Positions 4,312 to 30,900 of a DNA stretch of 64,000 nucleotides are shown piece after piece. Source of the stretch: Pegea sp. RAD2-039. Its lineage: Eukaryota > Chordata > Thaliacea > Salpida > Salpidae. The notes below the pieces were generated by a model. That model ran no database searches, was not told the DNA's origin, and was given only the letters and a program-made list of their open reading frames with translations. The translations under genes were made by a program, and so were the position numbers. How positions within the stretch are numbered: position 1 is the first letter of the stretch; the number at the start of each line of letters is the position of its first letter. Where the stretch lies: positions 1,178,001-1,242,000 of the forward strand of contig JAQGEQ010000048.1 in NCBI GenBank assembly GCA_034620365.1, given 5' to 3'.

Positions 4312-7300
4312 AGTTTCAACACTTACACGACAGAAGTTAACATCAAAAATGCTTCAGAATTACCCTTAAATGAAGCATCAAAAGAAGATTTAACTGCTTA
4401 TATTGCTGCTGAAATTTCCATTGCAGTACTTGTTTTCATCAGCAACAGTTTAGTTCTAATTGCTGTTTTCAAGTTCGAATATCTTCATTCAGTTACACAC
4501 CGTTTGATAGCTAGTCTTGCAGTAGCTGACTTACTGGTGGCTATCCTAGGCATACCAAGCGCAATTATGTTACGAATCGGTAAGACAATTTTTAAATTAT
4601 CTTCTTTAATATGGTTATTTTTAGTTTGCTTGTTTACGTAAAAAATGTTATCAAAAAAACCTTTAGAATTATATCATTATTAACATATCTCCTTTTACAA
4701 AAATGTTAACAATTTGTTTTTTGATGCAGAACTAATATAAATTCTAAATATAATTTTCATATAACTGCAGAACACCAGAAATTTTTTAACATATTCAATT
4801 CAAAAAATCTAGTTCAACATTAAAAAAGAAGAAAACTATTAGGATATGTAATATAGTTTTACAGTCTGTTTTGCTTCAATAGAGAAACAGATAGTTGCAT
4901 ACTTACGTCATTAGTTAAGTATGAAAAATAGCTGAATGGCAAAATTTGTAGATGTTTCAAATATAAAAGTCATCTTAAACTATCATGCAGTGATAATCTG
5001 CTGCTTTATTACAATAGAAAGCCTGTTTTAGGAAACACTTTATCTACTGAGTGTAATTACTTTGAGTTTTTATTCACAATCGCAACATTATAAACATTAA
5101 CGTCCTGTGTAGATAAAATCGCACAGACAGTGGAGCTATAAAGTAATGCCAAACTAAAATATTACTTTTATTAGCTTTTTTGTAATAGGCTTGGAACTTT
5201 CTACAAATTCTTCTGGATCAGTAGCAGCTGATGGCCATACAAAAATACACAAAGATTTCTGCTTAACAATTATCTGGATGGTAGTCACAATAACACAAGT
5301 TTCTATATTTCACCTACTTCTTATTGCAGGCGACCGCTACATTGCAATTAAATACTCACTGAGGTAAAAATTGTAGTGAAATGACAACTTCAATAATTTA
5401 TAAACTTGATTTACAAACTAGTTGGCTCAATATTATGTTTCAAAATAATGACATGTTAGACTGAAAAATATTTACATGAATTAACTTTGAGACATACTTG
5501 TGAATTTGAAAGTTTTTTTTTTACTTTTTTATTCCTAACTGTATACGTAAATTGCTTTATTGATTTAATAAGTTTTTTAATTGCAGCAAAAAGTTTCTCT
5601 GCTTATGCTAGACTAGTTTTGTGATTTATTATTTTTATAGCAGTAGAGTAAACGATTTTTGCTTCAAACACAAGTTTAGATGCATTTGTTCAAACCCAAT
5701 TTATTTGCTGTATGTATAAAGCATGATAAAAAGGAAACAGTTTGAGTGAGGAAATAAAATGATGAAATTTGCAACTGTCGCAATTTTTGCAGATATTACA
5801 CTTTAGTAAACTCACAACGTGCACGAGTTTTCATATCTTTAGCTTGGATATTTGGAGGAATTGTTGGTTTTACTCCATTGATAAACTCACAAGTGAACTC
5901 AACACATAAGTAAGTTTCTGCTTTTTTTTGTGAATGCATTAATAAATTAAAAGATATATTAATGTGATCTAAATATTTTACAATCAGCAAAATTATTCGT
6001 TTGCATAATTCCAGTTAAATTCCTGATGATTTTATAAATGTTATCTAATTTTACTGCAAATAATATGTTTTAAAGAATAAGAAATAAAGTATTTGGTATT
6101 ATCAATATGCTACTGTATGTTCTCTATTCAAACTGTTATGGTATTATTTTACGCAGCCATTGCACGTTTGAGTCAATCGCTAGTATGGAGCATATGGTTT
6201 TTTTTAATTTCTTTCTCTGTGTTTTATTACCTTTAGTATGTCTTTTCATACTATACGCCTACATTTTTAGGGTGGGTATACAAAAGTTTTTTATCCTTTG
6301 AACATGTAAACAGCTTCTTATAAGTTTCTTTTTTCAGTCGGCAAAAACACAATTAAAGAAAATTTATAATCAAGGTCTTATTAACAATAGCAGACATCAA
6401 AGCTTTGGAGCAGAAAGAAGTCCAACGCTTAATTTAATAAATAATGATTCACAAATTAAATTATCTGAACTTTCACCGAAAATTAAGCTAAAAACAATAG
6501 AATTTTCAAAGCAATTTAAAAAACAGAAAATAATTGGAGTAAATGAAAGCAATTTAGACAGCTGTAATAGAGAAGGTGATATCTGTATCTTTGATGAAGA
6601 AAAACAGGTTTATTTTCATTTTATAATCTTTTATCTTTATGTTTTTACTTATTTCATCAGCTTGCTTTGACATTTATTTTTCACACATTACAAAAAAATT
6701 TAATAACGAAGCAAATTGATATATAATATTTGTAAAGCAGAAGTGCTTTCAAAGCAACCTAACGTCAACAAAACAGTAAAAATCTTAAATAAGATAACAA
6801 ACTCAAACAACTTTAAAAACAAAAAAAAATTTCCATAGATTGAGCTAAAAAGCAGTAAAATCTCATTTTTAATTTTCTGTTTAAGCAAACTATGCTGACA
6901 CAGCGAAACAAATTGAATTTAGTTATATTTTGTTTTTCTTAACTTATTTTCTGAGAGTGCTTGTTTAATTGTAATTAAATAAATATGTTTACATAATATT
7001 TTTTCTCTTGTGTAGCTTATATATTCTGAATTTAAAGTATCTTCACTAATATTTTGTTAAACTCATATGAGTTGCTATTATTAAATTATTTCACATTTTT
7101 AGATGAAATTTGTCAGCATGAAACACCATACTGGTAGCAATATCAAATTGGGATTATCGTCAACAAATTCATCTCTTGACAGCGTTGATAAAGAATGCGA
7201 TTATTTATCCTCTAATGGACCCAGAAGAAGTTCAACAATCCTAGCTCGAAGCATCCAACGCCAAAGACTCAAAAAAACCTCAAGGTTGATACGGAAAGAG

Positions 7301-7582
7301 TTTAGAGCTGCTAGGAGTCTTTTCTTAGCCGTTGGGTTATTTTCTGCATGTTGGTTACCTTTGCACATTCATAACTGCCTATTAACGTTTACTGGTATGA
7401 GCCCAAACACTACACTAGTGACTGATTGTTTTATTCTTTTATCTCACGCTAACTCATTAATGAATCCATTTGTTTACGCGTTTCGAATGCGAGAATGGAG
7501 GCGTGCTTTTCACAGCCTACTTAAAAAAGCAGGAACTTGGATATCTGGAACAATTTTCAGACGCCGTGTCAGTTTAATCTGA
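4312..7582 (+). CDS. Adenosine receptor-like class A GPCR (5' exon missing from model)
   Basis: Seven-helix receptor predicted to bind adenosine at the cell surface and signal through G proteins. Exons seen: 4312-4579, 5189-5363, 5793-5909, 6157-6271, 6338-6607, 7103-7582; phases close and give at least 474 residues. TM1 carries a Glu at the usual adenosine-receptor position and SNSLVL; TM2 has SLAVADLLVAILGIP; TM3 has TQVSIF then GDRYIAI (DRY); TM4 follows RARVFISLAW; ECL2/TM5 reads CTFESIASMEHMVFFNFF, keeping the Phe-Glu pair that contacts ligand; TM6 has CWLPLHIHN; TM7 has LSHANSLMNPFVYAF, with the ligand-pocket Ser-His and NPxxY-type motif. An N-glycosylation site (NAS) lies before TM1. 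Intracellular loop 3 is about 160 residues, far longer than in mammals. The initiator Met is in an unidentified upstream exon. Identity is very secure at family level; the A1/A2/A3 split does not apply clearly to invertebrates. Confidence 0.93.
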
Positions 7583-13704: not shown

Positions 13705-16700
13705 TTAAAACGAACCGCTGACTAAATTCCTCAATTGTTTGTGAACTTGGTCATTAATTCTTTTTTTTCCTCTTCCACTGGGAGTGAAATAAGCAAGAGC
13801 ACCTCCTTGCTCCTGCTTAATTCTACCAACAAACAGTTCGATGTTTAATTTGTAAACTGATGCCTACTTGCAAACACATACTTTTCAAACAAGCTTAAAG
13901 CTATTGCGGGATTGACTCGTAAATATTTGCTCTTAGGTGTTGCATAGTCAGCAAAATAACTAGTCCAATCCCAAGTGAGGATCAGATCAAGTAACTGGCG
14001 GATTTCAGTGAAGCTCATTTGTAAGACTCCATCATCGAAACCAGGAACGGGTTCAGAATTTGCAAAATCTGTCGGTAAGTAGTTACAGCAGGTAACAGAC
14101 CAGTCAACGTCTCAGATCAATAGTAACTAATCTCTTACGTTCGCACTGGACAACATCCAGATTAAATTGATGTAAAGCTGGTACGGTGATCTCTTTGATC
14201 CCTGTGTCAAGGATGAGGGTAGTCAAACAAGTGCTGATGTGCCTACAAGCTGACATACAAGCGGTCTGGGCCACATTCGCCTGCAAAAGCCATTTTGTTA
14301 AAACTGAAAGATGTAGAAAACTAAAAAGACTTGGAAGCACCTGATTCAATTTAACATTTGTTGTAGAAGTAAAAGAAAGTAGAAATTACCGGTAAGGTTG
14401 TGAAGACTTGAAAAGTTGTTCGTAGAAATGAGATCAAATCTACAAGATATCGACTCGCTAGTCCTTGAGGTTCATTCATCGTCCAATCATAATCAGCTAG
14501 CTCAAAAAATGCATCAATTTTTTCATTCAATTTTGTATAAATCTGTCATAGAAGGAAATAATTGAAGAAAGTTTTGATGAGAACATTCAGCAACTTCCAC
14601 CTGTGTTTCCGTTTCACTGCGGGCATCTTTGAAAGTTGAGACGCCAACTAATTTAGCTGAATGAGCATTACCAGCTTTTACTCCTGTAATTTTACGTACA
14701 TATTCTTCAACATAAGGACACGAGTTTTCCAAATGAGTAGTGTTGACAATAATTTGTACAAGCTGAAAATGTTGGAGGTATACTTTAAATAGCAAATAGA
14801 TTCAAACTGACTTCAACATAGTTGAAAACAACAATTTTGTTAATGATAAATAAGTTTCTTGTAAAAAAGCTAAAAACAAACAAATTTTGAAGCTTAAAAT
14901 AGAAATTGTCGACAAGTTTGAAACATCATTCGTATTATGTTGATAAAATAATAAAATTTTCACCTGATTTAAACCAAGAGAAGGTTTCTGAACAAGAGTT
15001 TTAAGGCCACAAGAAAGAGTCTTAGTAAGAAGAAGATTGGTGGATTTTCGGATCATATCATCGACTTCGGTTGAACTAAAAGATATGAGTTTGAACAAAT
15101 ATAATTTGAGGTTCAAAAACTTACCTTAAATGAAGATCTTCACAGTATTTGAGACACGCCAGTATAAACTCTTTAATCTCGCTGTAGATCTTAGGAACAA
15201 ATAGAGAAAAGGGGAGCTTTTTTGGGTATTTACTTGCCTCTACAAAATCTAAGAAAAATTACATAAATGAGAAATAATTTTAATCTGAATGTCTTCAGAA
15301 AAACACAATTGAAATGAAAATATAAAATTCAAAACTAAAGTCAGCAAATTAGATGAATTATAAAACTGAATATTTTTGAATTCTTTTAATTCTGATTCAT
15401 GAAATTTACAAAATGTATGAAATTTGTTTTTTAGTAAACTTAATGGTTTAGAATGGTTTGATTCATAAAAAGTAGTTTAAGAAACAATTAAGGAAATGTA
15501 ACAGAAATTTTGAGCTGTAGAATTCAAATCAATTAAGAAAATCTTTTACAGAATAATAGATGCGATTAAATGAAGAACAAAATAAGATTTGTGTCTTACT
15601 AAATTCACAAGGAAATGCCAATAAGCAGTCATCAACATCATCAATTGTTTCTAAGTATATTGGAGTATAATTATCTTCACTGAAAACATTTGCAAAACGT
15701 TCCTGCCATAAATTAAGCATCATTTCACCATAAGTGTCTCTCATCTCCATCAAAAGACTGAATAATCTATCCACAGTAAAACCATATGCCTGAAAATGTT
15801 GGTTGAAGTATATAAAAGAGGCTTAAATCAAAGTTATTTTATCATTTGAATATTTTTTCGAGTTGACAATTACTATTGATGATAAGTTGTTATATCTAAC
15901 CAACGTACTTTAAGTGTATCAGCAAATATCACGATCGAATTTTTAATTTTCATCATTGAATGTGCGTCAGGAAGATTAATCTAACAAAAAAATCGAATTA
16001 ATTCACATCGATTGATTCCGACTTTAAATTTCAATTCAAATAATAAGATTGTAAGTAACAGAATGACTAATTACTTGGTTAGGAGCAAGCTTGTTAAGTA
16101 ACATCAACAACACCATGTTCCACAACTCGCATATATAACTTTGAGTAACTAGATTTTGAGCTGTATGAAGAATATGGTCTTCAACAACAAAAAATCTGAA
16201 AAATAATAACCACTACATCAATGAGTTTTCTTCAACAAACAGATCTTGTTAGTATAAAACTTTTCGAACAAAATCGAACAAAATTTAATCAGCATTAAAT
16301 TTAATCTTCTAATCCTGCTACTATCAATTACACGAATAAGATTTTGTTAAACAAAATAGCTTGAAAAAAATTGGTTTATCAATTTCTGCTTTTAATAAAA
16401 ATGCTGTTAATAATCCAAGAGATTTTATCAACTAAGCAGTTTTCGCTACTGCATAAGAATTAACAAATGACAAAGTAAAAAGATTAGATCTTAACATCTC
16501 AAACTGAATTCTAAAGTTTTATACACAAAGTAATAAATACTTAAACCTAATTAAAGCTTAAGTTTTTTTGACCATAAATAACCAAAAAAGCATTTCAATA
16601 AAAAAATGACTTCTTACTTAATTATAGGCTTTAAACAACCAGACTCAAATTATTTACATGTCAAGCTATATCAGAAATAATCTACTTTATGAGTTTTAAA

Positions 16701-19700
16701 AACGTGTCAATAAACGATACAGAAAACTATCGATAAAATAATTCATTCAGTTTGAGAACTTGAAAATATCGAAATGACGTACCCGACTACTTCATGAAAC
16801 ATTTTTGTATAAGTTTCTACTGCGCCGAGGTTACTAACTGATTCCAGTATAAGTTCAACTTGTTTTCTGCGCTGTTTTCGATAATAATCTTCAAACCAAG
16901 ATCTCAAATTGATCAAACCAAAGATATGCAAGCATTTGTAAACCGGCGAAAAGTCTACAATGTCCGAAGCTGACAGATCCTGAGAAAATGTTTTAATAAA
17001 ATTGAGTATTTTTTAAATAGTGGCAACAACAACAAAAATAAAACTTTTAAAACTGGAGCTTAAAAATTATGGATTAAAAGAAAATATTGATAAAAATTAG
17101 TTTAGAATGTTATTCTTGAAATTTAAAAACTGCAAAAACATCAACAGCATTATGTGATAAAAGCAAAAACTCTTTTTGTTTTCATTGCTGTAATATATAA
17201 AGTAATTTTGACAAAATATAAATTGTAAATCTTCTCATAAATCTGTCATGATACTACATATTTAAAAAAGTAGAAGTCAAAAAGAAACTTTAAGACATAA
17301 TACTTAGAAACTAGAAGAAAAATCAATTAACAATTGATGATAGAATAGAAATTAATAAAGTTCGTTTTAATAAAATCTATTTTTTTCAAATTGGAAAAGG
17401 CGATGCTATAATAAAAATTTACAATAATTATCCTTCATCAAATATGAAATAAAGAATTAATAAATTAACTCTGATCGTAATATTGCATTGATTAATATGA
17501 AATCAATCAGTAAGTTTGACCAACTGCATCTATTTGTATCATTTTCCAGTGTCTTGGTATCTTCCATTTAAAGGCAGATGAAACAATTTCATTTACTGAC
17601 TTTTTACGTGAAAGTATCAACTGATAACTTGATATTGAAGTGTTAGGTGCATCTAGTATAACCTGATTACAGATTAATGAAATATTTACAAGTCAAAAAG
17701 CAAGTTGAGTTGATTTAAATGAATTTGTAAATAAATCTATTTATCTAATAAGCAGCTAATAGTAACTCTACTAGTAACTTTTCAATTCCCCTACTTAGTT
17801 CACATCATATTGTTTATATTTGATTTTTTAGCATAAATAAATGTAAATAAACATTTACAAACAGTCTGATTGTTACTAAAATTATTTATACGACGGATCC
17901 TTTAACCATATGAAGCATATTTCAAAAAATCTTTTAAGATTTATTGAAATTATTTCATAATTCTTTTTAAATTTGTTTAATCTAGTTTTCAAACCATTTT
18001 CAGTTTGTAAAAACTTTGAAAATAAGTAAGCAACAATGAAGCAATCAATCTTTACCTGTAGATCTGATGAAGCACATTTCTCGACATTTTCTATTTTATT
18101 AGAATGTTGTTCATCATTATCAGTATCTAAAAATGGATTATTTAAAGATTGATCTGTTTCCAAATCTTCTTCTTGTAGATCATTCTCAGAGATTTGTGAT
18201 GTAGAATTATAATTGTTTGAAACTATCTCATTATCCTGTCTAATCTTTTCATCCAAACAGCTTTCTTTTTCAACCTGTAATTTCATATAATAAAAACAAA
18301 ATGATTTGAAGAATATTTTATCAGATATAAAATACTATAGCTTGAAAACAGACATCAAAAAGAGAAATTATTTCAAAAGGCTGATCAAACTACCTGATTC
18401 ATGGCTACTTTTCCAATTCTATTTGATTTACTTCTTACATTTTCCAAAAAGTTATTTAGTATCAGAGTAGATTTCTGTCTAATTGTATCTCTAATAGTTG
18501 GTATGTCATTCTTCATAATCTCACAAAAACGATATTGAAAAACTTGAGGAAGATATGTGGTTTCTAATTGCTCCAAAGTTTTTAAAGCAGCATAATATCT
18601 GTCATATAAAAAATACCAAAACATACAAAGATATATAATTAATTGGATTTATCAAATAATTTCACTTTATAACAGGAAATAAAATAATAACAACCTTTCT
18701 TCTTTCATTTGGTCACAAATTTTTGCATACATTTGTAAGATAGGTAGGCAAATTGTCAGCTTTTCAATAGCTGCTACAACATTTCTTTGTTGCAACCGAC
18801 ATTGTATCAAGGTATCACTTTTATCCATTACTTCTTTGCCAGAGTCATGAAGCTCTTTGTTGATAGCAATAGTTTGATTCTGAATATAATTTTGAAAAAT
18901 AAAATAAATAGAAATTTAGCATTTGAAGATAAAAATTGATTTTATTTTATTTATTTTTAATTTATTATCTAATTTATCTAAATAAACAAAAAGAGCAATT
19001 ACTTATATTTCTAAAGTCAGTAAAATTAAAAAAACAAAGCAAGCAGATACAGCAAAAGTGAAAACTTTAAATCAATTTAAACAAGTTAATAATATTAATT
19101 GGAAGCTATATAATAATAATATACAATAATATATATATATAATTATTATACAAAATAAAATAAACAAAAAAGATCTACTTTTTGCTTATTAAGTTTTTAT
19201 TTAACAATTTCAAGTATAAGATTTGCTGAAATTATATTAACCCATCATTAGGTTTAAATCATTTTCAGTATGTTAAAGTTACTATCATCAACAGTTTGAA
19301 ACTTACTTTCAGTTTCTTTGCATCACCTCTAACATTTATTAATTCAGTTATAGAATCAATAAATCCTTGGTAATGAAAATTACACATTTTTTCAATATCT
19401 TTATCATGTTGTTTGATTCGTGAATCTAGCCTATGAAGAAACTTTGTGTGATCATTCCCTTCATAGACTGCCCTGAAACATTCATACTATTAAATAAAAA
19501 TATGATAAAAATTAAAACTGGCAGATAACATAAATATATAATTAAGATTTTAGGGGTTTAAAAATAGTTAAAAAGCTAGAAACATTACTTCCTACAGTTA
19601 TTGATGAAAATCAAAACATATATATACTTATTAATAACCTTGCCAAGATATAAATCAAGATAAAGCCAGCCAAATGAATAACATTATAAATTAAAATTAA

Positions 19701-20782
19701 AACTATGAAGTAAGTTTCTATCACAAGATTACATTACACTATAAAAAAACTTTGGAAGACATCTGTGATATAATTAGTTAAATGCTGAGTTACCTAAATT
19801 TATAAATAGAAACTATATGTCTTTATTGCTTGATTTTTGAACAAATATTTTGACATAATTATCAAGTGATTAATTATTGTCATTATAAAATATGTTATGT
19901 TATAAAATCTTACACCAAAGATGTTAAACTTGTATATTATAACTGTATTTAGTCATAGAAGAACATCAAGTTAAAGACTATAAAAATTCAACTACCTGAA
20001 CACTACAAAATGCACCATTAATAATCTATTAACTTATTTATTGTTTATAACTTTATAATCTACTGTTTATTTACTTTTTTTTATTCACTACGTAGCTACA
20101 GATGACAAACTATATAGCTTTTCTTGTAAAAAAAAACAGTTAGGCAGAAAAATAATGAAAAAGCCTGAAGTATAACAATTTAGCAGAATTTATGTATAAA
20201 AAATAGAAATAATGCAGAAGTAGAAGTAAAATAAAAGTTTTAAACCAAATGTAAAAATGTTACAAAGTTAATGACAAAATAGATCATAACAAACTTGTTT
20301 TATATACAAAATCATCATTTCATAAAGATCATTAATTTCTGAGCCTCTTAGAACAAAAAAAAGAACAAACCATAACCTAAACAAAACTAACCAAAATCCA
20401 ACTATTAATATAATAGTAAGATAACTTATCAACCTTTTTTCATACATATCAAATTCATCACATTAAATATATCTTACATAATAAAAGTATAAATTAATGC
20501 TTCTTGAAAAACTAGCAAAGTCTTAATACAGCTATATTAAACAATGTACTAAATAAATTTTTAAGTTTTTCTTAAAAGAAAAACGAAAAAGCTTTAAATA
20601 AAAGATTTAGTAATTTCTTCATATTTATAAAAAACTATATACCTTAATGAAGCACCAATAAATGCTGTATCAGTCGTTTCAATTTCATTTAAAATTCTTT
20701 CATGTTCTCGGTCTACTTTAGTTTCTTGGTCTATACCTAAATCATTAACCTTATCTGAAACATTCTCATTCGAATATGACAT
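13705..20782 (-). CDS. EXOC6: Exocyst complex subunit Sec15 (EXOC6), short-N-terminus form
   Basis: Sec15 is the Rab-effector subunit of the exocyst, tethering secretory vesicles to the plasma membrane. Sixteen exons: 20643-20782, 19307-19472, 18695-18879, 18394-18598, 18056-18274, 16783-16979, 16075-16195, 15909-15980, 15600-15789, 15125-15248, 14964-15075, 14601-14762, 14390-14542, 14139-14280, 13882-14068, 13705-13822. All phases close, giving 830 residues against roughly 800 in vertebrates. Family landmarks in order: GASLR-AVYEG, EKMCNFHYQGF, LIQCRLQQRN, TYLPQVFQYRFC, YYRKQRRKQ, FFVVEDHILHT, STEVDDMIRKSTNLLLT, VQIIVNTTHLE, VAQTACMSACRH, QFNLDVVQCE, WDWTSYFADY and KYLRVNP. Exon 5 (73 codons) is a fast-evolving acidic linker. 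Introns 12 and 15 are only 58 and 59 bp. The start is the ATG at 20782, but this exon may also be used internally (see the upstream exons). Identity is certain; exon ends rest on splice rules. Confidence 0.95.
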
Positions 20783-20793
20783 GGCTTCTTTCT
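20643..20793 (-). other. EXOC6: Sec15 exon 1 read as an internal exon, alternative to 21548-21722
   Basis: Eleven bases before the ATG at 20782 there is a TTTTAG acceptor-like site on the gene strand. Starting at 20793, the frame runs open through the ATG with entry phase 1, the phase in which exon 21856-22078 leaves. The exon leaves in phase 2, like 21548-21722. The two exons therefore look interchangeable. The pyrimidine tract before this acceptor is weak and purine-interrupted, so use as a plain first exon is at least as likely. Confidence 0.45.
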
Positions 20794-21547
20794 CTAAAAC
20801 TCTCTACTTTCTAATGCACTGTGATATTATTCATAAAAAGATTTAAAGCTAAAAATTAAACTAAGATAATAGAAGATTTCAATTCTTATCCTAAAGTGTA
20901 CATTAAGTACTATGTTTATCAACATATATGGACTTTTTCCTACTAGTGGACAAAAACTAAAACTGTAAGAACCAAAACAAAAGTAGAGTAATTGTGAAAT
21001 GAATAAATATCTAAACAAAAAGAATAAAAAAAAAACCTAAGTTTCCAAATAATTCTGAAAATATATAATACTTGGTAATAGTGATATCTTAGTCAAACTT
21101 TTTTAGTGGCTGAGTAAAATAAACTCTAAGGCTTAAGCATTTTTTAAAGTCTCTACTGCAATCTATGAAAAAATTAATAAAAGATTGGGTTATCTCTGAC
21201 AAAAGCTTTTCGAAAACAGTCAACAAGAGTTTTATTCAGCATTGAGCTTATAAGAATAATATTGATAATAAAGATTAGATCTGCTTGTAAAAGGGTACAA
21301 AAAAGCGCAGTTACTTAAAAATTTCAAACCTTTCAAAATCTTTGTATCATAAACCTATCTAAAATTAATATATCAATCCTCAAACAATTTCAATAAGATA
21401 GCTGAACGTTTGTCGGTTTGCTTTGCCATAACTAATTAAGTGAAACTACAATTATACTTTTTTTCAAAACATTTAGTACTGAAAATGTAGAATCACTTGA
21501 GCAAATTTCAAAAATTTGTAACAAGAACATAATTTATTTGATCATAC

Positions 21548-23418
21548 CTTAATGCAGGACCTAAATAAACGCCAGATTCGATTTCTTGGATTATTATATC
21601 CTGAGTGTATTCTATTGATTCGAAATCAGCTTTGCCAAATTCAATTTCAATATCATCATGTATGTCCATTTCTTCTTTAATAGACTCCTCTTCAAAGCTC
21701 TTGTGTATTTGTTTTGCTATGACTAAGATAAAGAATAGTATTAGGTTATCTTTTAGCAGTTAAAGCCAAAACAATTCATGCTTTTGAACCACAATGCTAT
21801 TATTTGATAGATGTAGCTTAAATATACATAAGATACTTTTATTAAAATCGATAACCTGAATAATCTAATCCAAGATCTTCATCTGAATCTATATCTACGT
21901 CTAATGAGACTTCTTGAGGAATGACACTGAGTGCAGCAATAGTAGATCGTTTTCTTAATCTCCTCTTTTTTGTATCCGGAATTGAAACTTTTAAAAGAGA
22001 ACTAGTGCTTATACTGCGCATAAATCCTTTTTTTGCTGTAGGAACTTCTTCAATTTTTTCCATTTGTTGTAGATTGTTCTAAAAACATACAACTAAATTA
22101 AAAGAAAATTGAAAACAAAGCTAACGTTCTTATAACTTTTTATTATGAAATAAAATCCTAAATATTAATGCATCATTTGACAAACTAAAATGACTAAGAA
22201 TTGAAAAGAAGTAAAAATCTAAATTAAAAAGCTAGTTATGGCAGAACTATCATTAAACACATCACAAGCTTTTGTCCTCATAATATGGATAAACTATCGA
22301 TTTTATAAAAATCTGTTTTTAAATTTGTCACTACTTAATCAACTAAATTAGATGACTTTCTTTAAATCATTTCAAAATCACAAATTATGCAATCAAAGCA
22401 ATTTTGCTTAAAAACTGTATAAAGACTAAATTATATAAACAAACTAAAGATTATTGTACTGATGAATTCAAACTAAAAGAAACATCTAGAAACAGAGTTG
22501 TTAGTTTACCTTCAGAATTCGTTTCTTGGTCATATTTTGTTCAATGATACTTACAGATTTACGACGAGCTTTAGAAATAAGCAAAACGTTTCCGTTAAAT
22601 AATATTTTAATTATTTAAACTAGGATTTATACTGTTTATTAAGTAAAATACAATAAAAAATAAAGGTAGTAATAAATCTTAGCTTTATCATATACAAAAG
22701 TAGTTAATCTAAAAAATTATTAAATATACTTTTGAAAACAAAATCAGAAATATTATGATTACTTTAGTAGAAGAATTAAAAGAAATTGTTTTAAACTAAG
22801 CAGCATTACTGTATAACTACTTGTAAGAAATTCAATCAATCGATTAAAACATTTCTTTATAAAGCTTTAGTTGAGCTTAGAAAGCTACTTTTGAAAAGAT
22901 TTTACAATAACTTTAACATATAAAATAAAATTTTGTAAAATTAACTCTAATCGTTATCAGTTGATTATTCTCCTTAACCCCGATTCATAAATTGAATTTA
23001 TTTAATTTATTTGAAGAGTTATTTTTAAGCCATGATTACTCATAGGAAGCTAGGCTTTAAAATAAGTGCTATTAAATATAAAACAAAATCAAAACTTCAA
23101 ATTTATTATTAGCTTTTTGTAACATATTTCTGATGACTTGAAATAATTCAAAACATTTATGAAAGCTTTATATCTACATAGTGACTTACCTGGAGATTCT
23201 GTTTTATTTGAAGATAAATTAAATGCATTCATAATATTAGCTGACGAAGCTCGTCTTATTTTCTTCAGAGGGCTGAACTGCTTTTTTCTTGTGGGTCTTT
23301 CGGGAGGTTTTTCATCTGTACTCCCAATGGAGCTTCTGCGTTTTTCAGATAAATCTTTTTCTGAGATCATCTTAGAATCATCATTTTTTTCCTCTTTTGT
23401 ACAATCTTCGTCAGACAT
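21548..23418 (-). CDS. EXOC6: Upstream exons predicted to give Sec15/EXOC6 a long alternative N-terminus
   Basis: Four exons with matching phases: 23190-23418 (ATG at 23418), 22510-22568, 21856-22078, 21548-21722. The first three encode a basic, Ser/Arg-rich low-complexity region with many R-x-x-S-like sites (RRASS, RRKSVS, RSISTSS, KRRLRKRST) and an acidic run DIDSDEDLGLD; I do not recognise it. The fourth ends in IIIQEIESGVYLGPALR, which matches the conserved opening of Sec15 (E-x-E...GP-x-LR), and stops in phase 2 exactly like Sec15 exon 1. Joined to exon 19307-19472 it would give about 1012 residues. Its acceptor may be TTAG at 21723 or a second AG six bases on, both in frame. Alternative: exons one to three end as a separate protein of about 180 residues, by reading into a stop at 21842. 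The Sec15 link is inferred from homology and phase. Confidence 0.7.
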
Positions 23419-27930: not shown

Positions 27931-30900
27931 TCAAAATTTAAAAAGTCCATCAGATGGAAGTGATGCAGCGGGGTCGAAGTGGAAACCCATTGGGTTAGCT
28001 TCATCTGCTCTCAATTCATCATTCGGCTGCAATTAACAATTGGTAAGAAGTTTCATATATCAGCAGCTACTACAACTTACATCCCCCGAGAAAAACTGTT
28101 CGATTATTTCGTAGGCAAGTTTGTAGATGTCTTCATTTTCATGGTTTTGAAGAATTTCTATCTTATCAAGACCTACAGATCGACATGTTAGGTTTGAAGA
28201 GCTCTCAACCTCAAACCTACTAACCTTCACATTCTTCGATTAAAGTAGCAACAGAGTCACTGTCATTTGCCATCTTCAGAATATTATTAATTCCATCTAA
28301 AACAACTTGAACAACCTACAAAGTGACATTCAACAAAGTGATATTCACAAACTTTTTCCTCACCTGATTGTCCTTAGCATCCAACAAATTACAAAAGGGT
28401 TGAATGACGCCTTGTTCCACTGCATAAGCCACTTGCTCCTTGTTGCCACTAATGGTCAGATTGCTAATGGCCCAAGCTGCCTCTTTCTGTGTCTGAAAGT
28501 CAGCCTAGAAAAAAGCAAATTTCCTAAAAGTCCCCGAGACATATAAAACAAACTTTAGCCAGATGTAAAATGATCTGAGGAATAAGTCCGGCATCAATGA
28601 CCGCTTGAACTTGGTTTTGGTTTCCAGCAGTTATGTTAGAAAGAAACCAAACAGCTTCCTGAAAAAAAAAACAATGAAAAGTCGACCTCAAATAGGATTA
28701 CAATCAAAGACCTTGTTGATCTTCTCCTTTGGATGAGAAAGAAGAGCGGGAAAGTGATCAAGGACACCACAGTTCAACACTTCTTGAGTTTGCTCATCAG
28801 TTCCAGTTACGATATTACCAACAGCACGTACAGCAGCAGTCTGTATGATATTAGAATCTGCAACATTTGATTCTGACAAGCACCAGCCAGTTTCTCACCT
28901 GAACTTTCACTTCAGCATGAACCAGCAGAGGAACCAAATAAGGAACAACACCAGAGTTGATAACCATCTGAATAAGACTGTTCCCACCATCAGTCAAGTA
29001 AGAAAGAGCCCAAACAGTATCCACGAGAATCTGAAAGATTTACTGAATAAGGTTTGAACGAGGTAGCAACCTTCTTACATTAGTATCGGGGTGGTGAACA
29101 AGCTCACATAATGCAGGTAATAAAGCTTGGATAGTCTCCATGGGTGGAGGTGGATCTTTGTTTCGGCAAAGGTTTACAACTACCCAAGTTACATTTCTAA
29201 ATGAACAACAGCAGATATCAGCAAGATATTTTTGATAGATATTCGATTACAAAACTTGTTTATCATTTGCAAATTCGAACTATCTACATGCTACATGCTT
29301 AAAATAAATGAAATAATTTAAAAAATGATTTTATTTTTTGATAATTTTTTGCTGGATTGAACTTTGTGAGAATTAAAACAAAAGCTTTCATCAAAGCCTT
29401 AAGTTAGATTAATTCTTCATCAAAAAAGTTTAAATAACAATTTGGTCCCTACCTTAAAAAACTTATAGGTATTTCTGGATTGATGAATAGCAGTAAGGGT
29501 GACACGACTCCAAGGCTAATGACGTAATCTCTCAAATTAGGTCCATCACCTTTTCGATTGAAAACATTTAAAAAATAAATTGAACTATTTTGATATTTCG
29601 AACAAGCGCTTTCTTATTTATTTGTAGCAAAAACTATAAATAAAAGTATTAAAGTGATAAATATACCAATGATGTTTCCAAGAGCCCAAACGGCTTGTTC
29701 ACAAACATTTTGATGTTCTGATCCTAAAAGCCGAAGGAATAAAGGAACTGCACCTGTGCACAAAATAAAAACCATTTATCTTTAACTTATACAAGTATAA
29801 ATTAAACAAATATCACTAAGTTCATTTTTATAATAATAATTATCAAATTATTCAGTAGCATTCTTACTTATCAAAATAACAAGAAAGTTTGAGAGAAAAT
29901 TAATTTGATTAATATTCTTTATTAAATTAAGTCAAAAAGTAAATTTAATTAAATATTTTTGAGCAGTGCAGTTTGCATTCAGGTAACAAGTACTAACCAG
30001 CATCTACCACAGCTTGAGTCTGTTGAGATGTCCCAGAAGCAATATTTGTAAGAGCCCAGGCAGCTTCAAACTGCAGTGAGGAATAGTCTTCTCGTTTGAG
30101 GCAATTTACCAAAATAGGTAAGATACCTTAAAAGATGAAATCATTATTTTCATCTACAAGTATAAACATGAAAAAATTATTCTATAGCTGACTTGTGTTT
30201 GATAAATATAACTAACTTGTATGTCTAATGTACAAACTACCATCTATGTATATAACATAAATATTAATAATAAATAAATAACCGTTCATTTAGGCACCAA
30301 ATATTTTCAAAGATATAAAAAATTCAGAAATTTATAAAATTTTGTAAATAGTTAAAAATCAAGCTTTCTGTAAATTCAGAACGATTTATAGTTACAAATA
30401 ACAAATAAAACTAAAATCTACTGAAACAGCTTTTAATAAATACATAAACAAACTGATGCAAAACCAACCAGATCGAATCAAGTCATCTATTGGAGGATTT
30501 CTATCACTAGATAAAAGCTTTCTGGCTTGCTGAACAGCAGTTAGTTGAACTACGTCATCACTGTTCTTAGCATTTTCTACTATCTCACTAAGAGATAAAG
30601 ACAAGGGAACCTATTAAAACACATTGACAACAAAGTCAGTTGATTTACAAGAATTGATTTCTACTATCAAGTCTTAAAATGTAGAAAGTTAGTAAAACGA
30701 GTAATTAGCTGATAGTACTTGTGTTTTTACACCATTCTTAAATCAATAATTTTTACTTCAGTTTATTCATAAAATATACTTTGAAAGATTATACTTATAA
30801 AATACTTGTTGTTTTATTAGATTATTATTCTACTTCTACTTATTAAAATTTACCAGCAGCTTAATCAATCAGCAAAATTGATGTTGTTTACCAAGTAGAA

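Follow-up and report, generated by a model that had tools for sequence, protein, structure and literature searches.

A Sec15 gene is usually regarded as the source of a single protein, and studies of exocyst diversity have focused on other subunits. The locus described here raises the question of whether one tunicate Sec15 (EXOC6) gene may have two beginnings. In the 64-kb stretch of DNA that we analysed (the window), two exons on the minus strand, U4 (21548-21722) and E1 (20643-20793), can each be joined to the same downstream exon, E2. The initial annotation read them either as a duplicated exon used in a mutually exclusive way or as alternative first exons with two promoters. We propose that they probably belong to two alternative routes into a single Sec15 gene, each with its own first coding exon.

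The Sec15 gene and its common core

An exon-by-exon model built from the DNA placed a complete Sec15/EXOC6 gene on the minus strand at 13705-23418. The common core was composed of 15 exons (E2-E16, from 19472 down to 13705), with GT..AG borders at 14 of 14 introns. The common partner exon E2 (19307-19472) encodes the first part of the N-terminal domain of Sec15 (PF20651, Pfam E 2.5e-10, beginning past the junction with the variable exons). It is followed by E3-E6 (18695-18879, 18394-18598, 18056-18274 and 16783-16979), E7-E10 (16075-16195, 15909-15980, 15600-15789 and 15125-15248), E11-E14 (14964-15075, 14601-14762, 14390-14542 and 14139-14280) and E15-E16 (13882-14068 and 13705-13822), the last of which contains the stop codon.

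In the Pfam comparison, run exon by exon, EXOC6_Sec15_N (PF20651) and Sec15_C (PF04091) both scored above the cut-off, and the Sec15 structure 2a2f was matched with E 4e-75. Over most of its length, the shorter of our two protein models was identical at 58% to Ciona intestinalis P0009, at 56% to C. intestinalis P0003, at 55% to Styela clava P0011, and at 47% to human EXOC6B (P0104). The best 11 protein matches comprised ten tunicate proteins (from Ciona intestinalis, Clavelina lepadiformis, Ciona savignyi and Styela clava) and the JGI protein P0006, with vertebrate proteins next. Domain content and end-to-end similarity identify the predicted gene product as the Sec15/EXOC6 exocyst subunit.

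A second Sec15 was not found in the assembly (105.7 Mb, 387 contigs), where six of six Sec15_C matches corresponded to the locus at 13705-23418. The tail of U4 joined to E2, used as a query against the genome, returned both exons and one further match with E 0.39; both of these genome searches score the best candidates only. One gene is therefore most likely the source of every Sec15 form in this species.

Several other features were observed in and around the gene. E5 (18056-18274, minus strand) encodes a linker that is variable and contains a single NPF motif, NNPFLD; the corresponding linker is longer in Ciona X3 and in Clavelina, where it has several such motifs. NPF motifs are ligands of EH domains. 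Between E5 and E6, positions 17507-17662 (minus strand, acceptor score 0.1) may form an alternative 3′ exon that includes a stop codon. Its sequence has weak matches, with E 0.003 to an insert of Clavelina X2 and with E 0.2 to the tail of Ciona X5, both values obtained with no low-complexity filter. Ciona X5 stops at the matching place without the Sec15 C-terminal domain, so a truncated Sec15 conserved between tunicates is possible. Upstream of the Sec15 gene and on the same strand, an Armadillo-repeat exon (28316-28504, PF00514, E 3e-12) probably belongs, as we take it, to an importin-alpha-like gene. On the plus strand, positions 7103-7582 form an exon that encodes part of a G-protein-coupled receptor of the rhodopsin family (PF00001, E 8e-13).

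Two beginnings and one junction

The two variable exons were found at the coordinates and in the frames given by the initial annotation, and both have an AG acceptor and a GT donor. Both end with TTAAG/gta (the slash marks the exon border) and exit after a leucine codon and two bases of an arginine codon. In this phase 2 exit, the AG of either exon and the first G of E2 (19472) form the arginine, and both joins to 19307-19472 are in frame, as had been claimed.

The long beginning is formed by four exons on the minus strand. U1 (23190-23418), the proposed first coding exon, starts with an ATG at 23418 that has an in-frame TAA nine codons upstream, and it encodes basic, serine-rich sequence; its donor is the full consensus CAG/gtaagt. 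The frame runs on from U1 through the proposed second exon, U2 (22510-22568), into the third, U3 (21856-22078), which exits in phase 1. The variable exon U4 (21548-21722), which ends in ...DIIIQEIESGVYLGPALR, has the borders ttatcttag/TCATAG...ATTAAG/gtatga and exits in phase 2. The resulting model (U1-U2-U3-U4-E2 and onwards) is 1012 aa long, with 229 residues before the junction and no internal stop.

The short beginning is confined to E1 (20643-20793, minus strand; coding part 20643-20782), which ends in ...EHERILNEIETTDTAFIGASLR and also exits in phase 2. Its borders are gttttag/AGAAAG...ATTAAG/gtatat, of which the acceptor at 20793 was taken from the initial annotation. E1 contains a start codon of its own, the ATG at 20782, which is preceded by an in-frame TAG 24 bases upstream; E1 is therefore able to serve as a first exon. 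The short model is 830 aa long and has no internal stop; it has 47 residues ahead of the junction and the canonical EHERILNEIE..LR start.

Four joins were tested. U1-U3 followed by either U4 and E2 or E1 and E2 remained open, in agreement with the earlier claim that exon 21856-22078 can enter either variable exon. The joined models with both variable exons or with neither broke the frame, with a stop after 237 and 185 residues, respectively. Thus, each of the two routes has its own start codon (23418 or 20782), an in-frame stop upstream of it, and an in-frame join to E2.

Splice-site scores contributed little. We ranked 573 AGs with a weight matrix made from 15 core acceptor sites, which is too weak to separate the readings discussed below. 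The acceptor of U3 ranked 41 (score 5.7), that of U4 117 (1.4), that of E1 139 (0.7), and that of U2 206 (-1.4, the lowest of the four upstream sites). The core acceptors themselves were also scattered, from -6.4 to 8.7 in leave-one-out scoring.

Counterparts in other tunicates

Alignment with Sec15 of related species bore out both exons. The 23 residues of E1 before the junction are identical at 23 of 23 positions in Ciona X4 and in the JGI protein P0006, at 22 of 23 in Styela P0011, and at 17 of 23 in human EXOC6B. The last 35 residues of U4 are identical to Ciona X3 at 24 positions and to Clavelina at 23. Judged from these alignments, the similarity of the exon pair to its relatives is more than chance. 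The initial annotation had matched both exons to the conserved start of Sec15; this was upheld for E1, including against the human protein, whereas U4 shares with that start mainly EIE....G..LR.

P0006 was 95% identical to the 830-aa short model from end to end (791 of 832 aligned positions), which marks it, by sequence, as the short-form Sec15 from a close relative. It is encoded on a JGI contig of 2916 bases, shorter than the span of about 7 kb from E1 to E16 here; we infer that the contig must be a spliced cDNA. P0006 and Ciona X4 (P0009) both start with a methionine inside the E1-type exon.

Among the matches listed, the closest counterpart of the whole arrangement was found in Ciona intestinalis. 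Isoforms X3 (P0003), X4 (P0009) and X5 (P0001, LOC100180433) of its exocyst complex component 6 have, as in the window, two types of N-terminus attached at the same residue to one core. Identity between X3 and X4 extends over 865 residues from the junction leucine on, and they have no other common block longer than five residues. X4 has 48 residues before the junction, compared to 47 in our short form, and X3 has 229, as does our long form. The sequences thus show X3 and X4 to have the same arrangement as the gene in the window, in another genus. In Ciona, however, the extension is hardly alike outside the U4-type exon, the middle of the protein is longer and rich in NPF motifs, and X5 ends before the C-terminal domain. 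In Clavelina lepadiformis, exocyst complex component 6B-like X2 (P0005), X6 (P0004) and P0002 have a long-type extension and a U4-type exon, as here, but the short form was not among the matches listed. Styela clava P0011 and human EXOC6B (P0104) are of the canonical E1 type, like our short form; unlike in our gene, a U4-type exon was not found for them in a search that needs shared five-residue words.

We classified 138 retrieved proteins, namely the best 120 of 376 matches and 18 from a second search, all from clustered listings. Five had a U4-type end, seven were tunicate proteins of the E1 type, 116 were canonical and vertebrate-like, four had an odd end at the junction, and six were unreadable. 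In all seven tunicate E1-type proteins, the junction was preceded by 34 to 48 residues, and none of them (0/7) had an upstream extension; three, all from Ciona savignyi, have no start methionine and are perhaps incomplete. With the U4-type part of Ciona X3 as the query, five proteins were obtained from 23 candidates, all from Ciona intestinalis or Clavelina. Among the matches listed, and by species name, both forms occurred in Ciona intestinalis only; Clavelina was represented by the long form only, and Styela and Ciona savignyi by the short form only. Since the searches need shared five-residue words, absence from other species is weak evidence.

The part of the long form encoded by U1-U3 calls for more caution. 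An alignment of the extension with Ciona (E 1.5e-10) and Clavelina (5e-13) was rejected, as it had run into U4 and was made with no composition correction; U1-U3 alone are near chance. Against Ciona X3, 87 of 1000 shuffles scored as well as U1-U3 alone (composition-corrected E 0.009), and against Clavelina, 15 of 1000 did (composition-corrected E 0.041). The extensions of Ciona and Clavelina compared with each other gave 0 of 1000. By these scores, U1-U3 appear weakly conserved. The number of residues before the junction in the long type is 229 here, 229 in Ciona X3 and 248 in Clavelina P0004, and we kept U1-U3 as likely exons because both the length and the style of the extension agree with Ciona and Clavelina. 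It is likely that U1-U3 are the exact upstream exons.

Origin of the two forms and its meaning

We consider that alternative first coding exons are probably the best explanation of this locus. The long form would be made from a transcript starting upstream of 23418, in which U1-U2-U3-U4 is spliced to E2 and E1 is skipped, yielding a Sec15 of 1012 aa. Of its 229 residues before the junction, most would form an extension that is basic and rich in serine. A second 5′ end, located in the interval of about 0.75 kb between U4 and E1, would give the canonical Sec15 of 830 aa from the ATG of E1. This short 5′ end may arise from its own promoter, or by spliced-leader trans-splicing at an acceptor just upstream of that ATG. 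What supports two such putative 5′ ends in the present species is the Ciona isoforms and P0006. The suggestion of alternative first exons made in the initial annotation gains from the same comparison, as Ciona X4 and P0006 start inside the E1-type exon and an upstream extension leads to the U4 type in the long isoforms of Ciona and Clavelina.

The Sec15 N-terminal domain begins past the junction (in Ciona X3, at residue 244), and therefore both forms should keep the exocyst core. The swap would alter the segment just ahead of the long N-terminal helix. Exocyst subunits pair through this helix, which spans residues 55-161 in the AlphaFold model of P0006. Over residues 1-50 of that model, the E1 part, the mean pLDDT values were 34, 34, 54, 46 and 46; with such low values, the model says little about the structure of the swapped segment. 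Basic and serine residues abound in the extension of the long form, which includes R-R-x-S-like runs that resemble a kinase consensus. We would guess at a putative regulatory role, such as extra binding to membranes or partners, perhaps under the control of a kinase.

It is also plausible that U4 and E1 go back to a single ancestral exon end (EIE....G..LR with the donor) that was duplicated, an origin compatible with alternative first coding exons, and we see even chances for it. Over 12 pairings (nine distinct, as the E1 segments of the window and Ciona are identical), between 0 and 32 of 5000 shuffles scored as high as the similarity anchored at the junction, and 12 of the last 14 bases of the two exons are identical. 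The window pair of U4 and E1 is, however, the weakest pairing (32 of 5000), with an alignment of 18 columns that requires a two-residue gap; an ungapped comparison matched 25 of 60 bases, and the segments had been chosen for looking alike. Moreover, U4 and E1 precede the same domain, so a shared constraint can explain the resemblance.

The other suggestion of the initial annotation, a duplicated exon used in a mutually exclusive way, assumes a single upstream start, with U3 joined to U4 or, at the acceptor before 20793, to E1. The frame logic fits it, as both joins are in frame and using or skipping both exons breaks the frame, and an AG acceptor of the right phase precedes E1 (score 0.7, compared to 1.4 for U4). 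On the other hand, E1 has its own ATG, at which Ciona X4 and P0006 of the close relative start, and in all seven tunicate proteins of the E1 type no more than 34 to 48 residues precede the junction, with 0/7 extended. The duplication itself is weakly supported by the gapped alignment described above. We regard mutually exclusive use as unlikely.

Spliced-leader addition could also act as the switch. The Ciona-type leader, ATTCTATTTGAATAAG, followed by GT was found at 259 places in the genome with at most one mismatch, compared to one for the reversed control, and none was found within the 64-kb window. The copies sit in tandemly repeated units of about 199 bases that have a GTAAGT donor, as observed, for example, at positions 1-700 of locus L018 (contig C4 of the same genome); this array likely represents the spliced-leader RNA genes of this tunicate. 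According to the part of PMC7986045 available to us, the Ciona leader has the same 16 bases, ATTCTATTTGAATAAG, and is spliced onto at least 58% of expressed genes. One pre-mRNA might thus make both proteins: with the leader added near E1, the upstream coding part would become an outron and canonical Sec15 would be made, whereas extended Sec15 would result where cis-splicing wins. If true, trans-splicing would serve the exocyst as a switch between protein isoforms that tunicates have retained. As reported in the accessible part of PMC11155486, trans-splicing in Ciona prefers the first functional acceptor and accompanies weak first donors, and two-promoter models are under discussion. The acceptor of E1 is not the first, and the donor of U1 is a full consensus; on these partial sources, a second promoter combined with the leader therefore fits better than a switch acting on one RNA, which we find quite unlikely.

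We regard it as unlikely that short Sec15 is the sole product here, with the upstream exons reduced to a relic or U1-U3 wrongly chosen. In favour of this reading, no long-form transcript or protein of this species or its close relative was found among the best 120 of 376 matches or in the 18 of the further search (0/18), and U1-U3 alone are close to chance similarity. Against it, U4 is identical at 24 and 23 of 35 residues to proteins of two other tunicate genera and has retained its donor and phase, and one frame is continuous across four exons with AG and GT borders.

Alternative splicing is known for other exocyst genes, namely EXOC7 and Exoc3l2 (the latter in PMC6080751), where isoforms of subunits likewise diversify the complex. 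These are, however, other subunits, and the splicing of Exoc3l2 is internal and does not concern alternative starts of Sec15; the main text of PMC6080751 has no mention of EXOC6 or Sec15. In the accessible part of PMC5521770, Exoc6 is named once, in a gene list. Among the matches listed in our literature search, which covered titles, the starts of abstracts and few subscription journals, no paper describing alternative starts of Sec15/EXOC6 was identified. The view of the initial annotation that the arrangement is undescribed thus holds for the literature searched, but not for databases: both isoforms are public Ciona entries, so the arrangement is annotated, even if undiscussed.

The two-start Sec15 gene looks like a real, conserved and otherwise ordinary case of one gene with two proteins. 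With the two types of N-terminus present in more than one tunicate genus, Ciona would offer a simple chordate system for testing the role of a Sec15 extension. The Sec15 gene would also be a candidate for asking whether spliced-leader addition chooses between protein forms.
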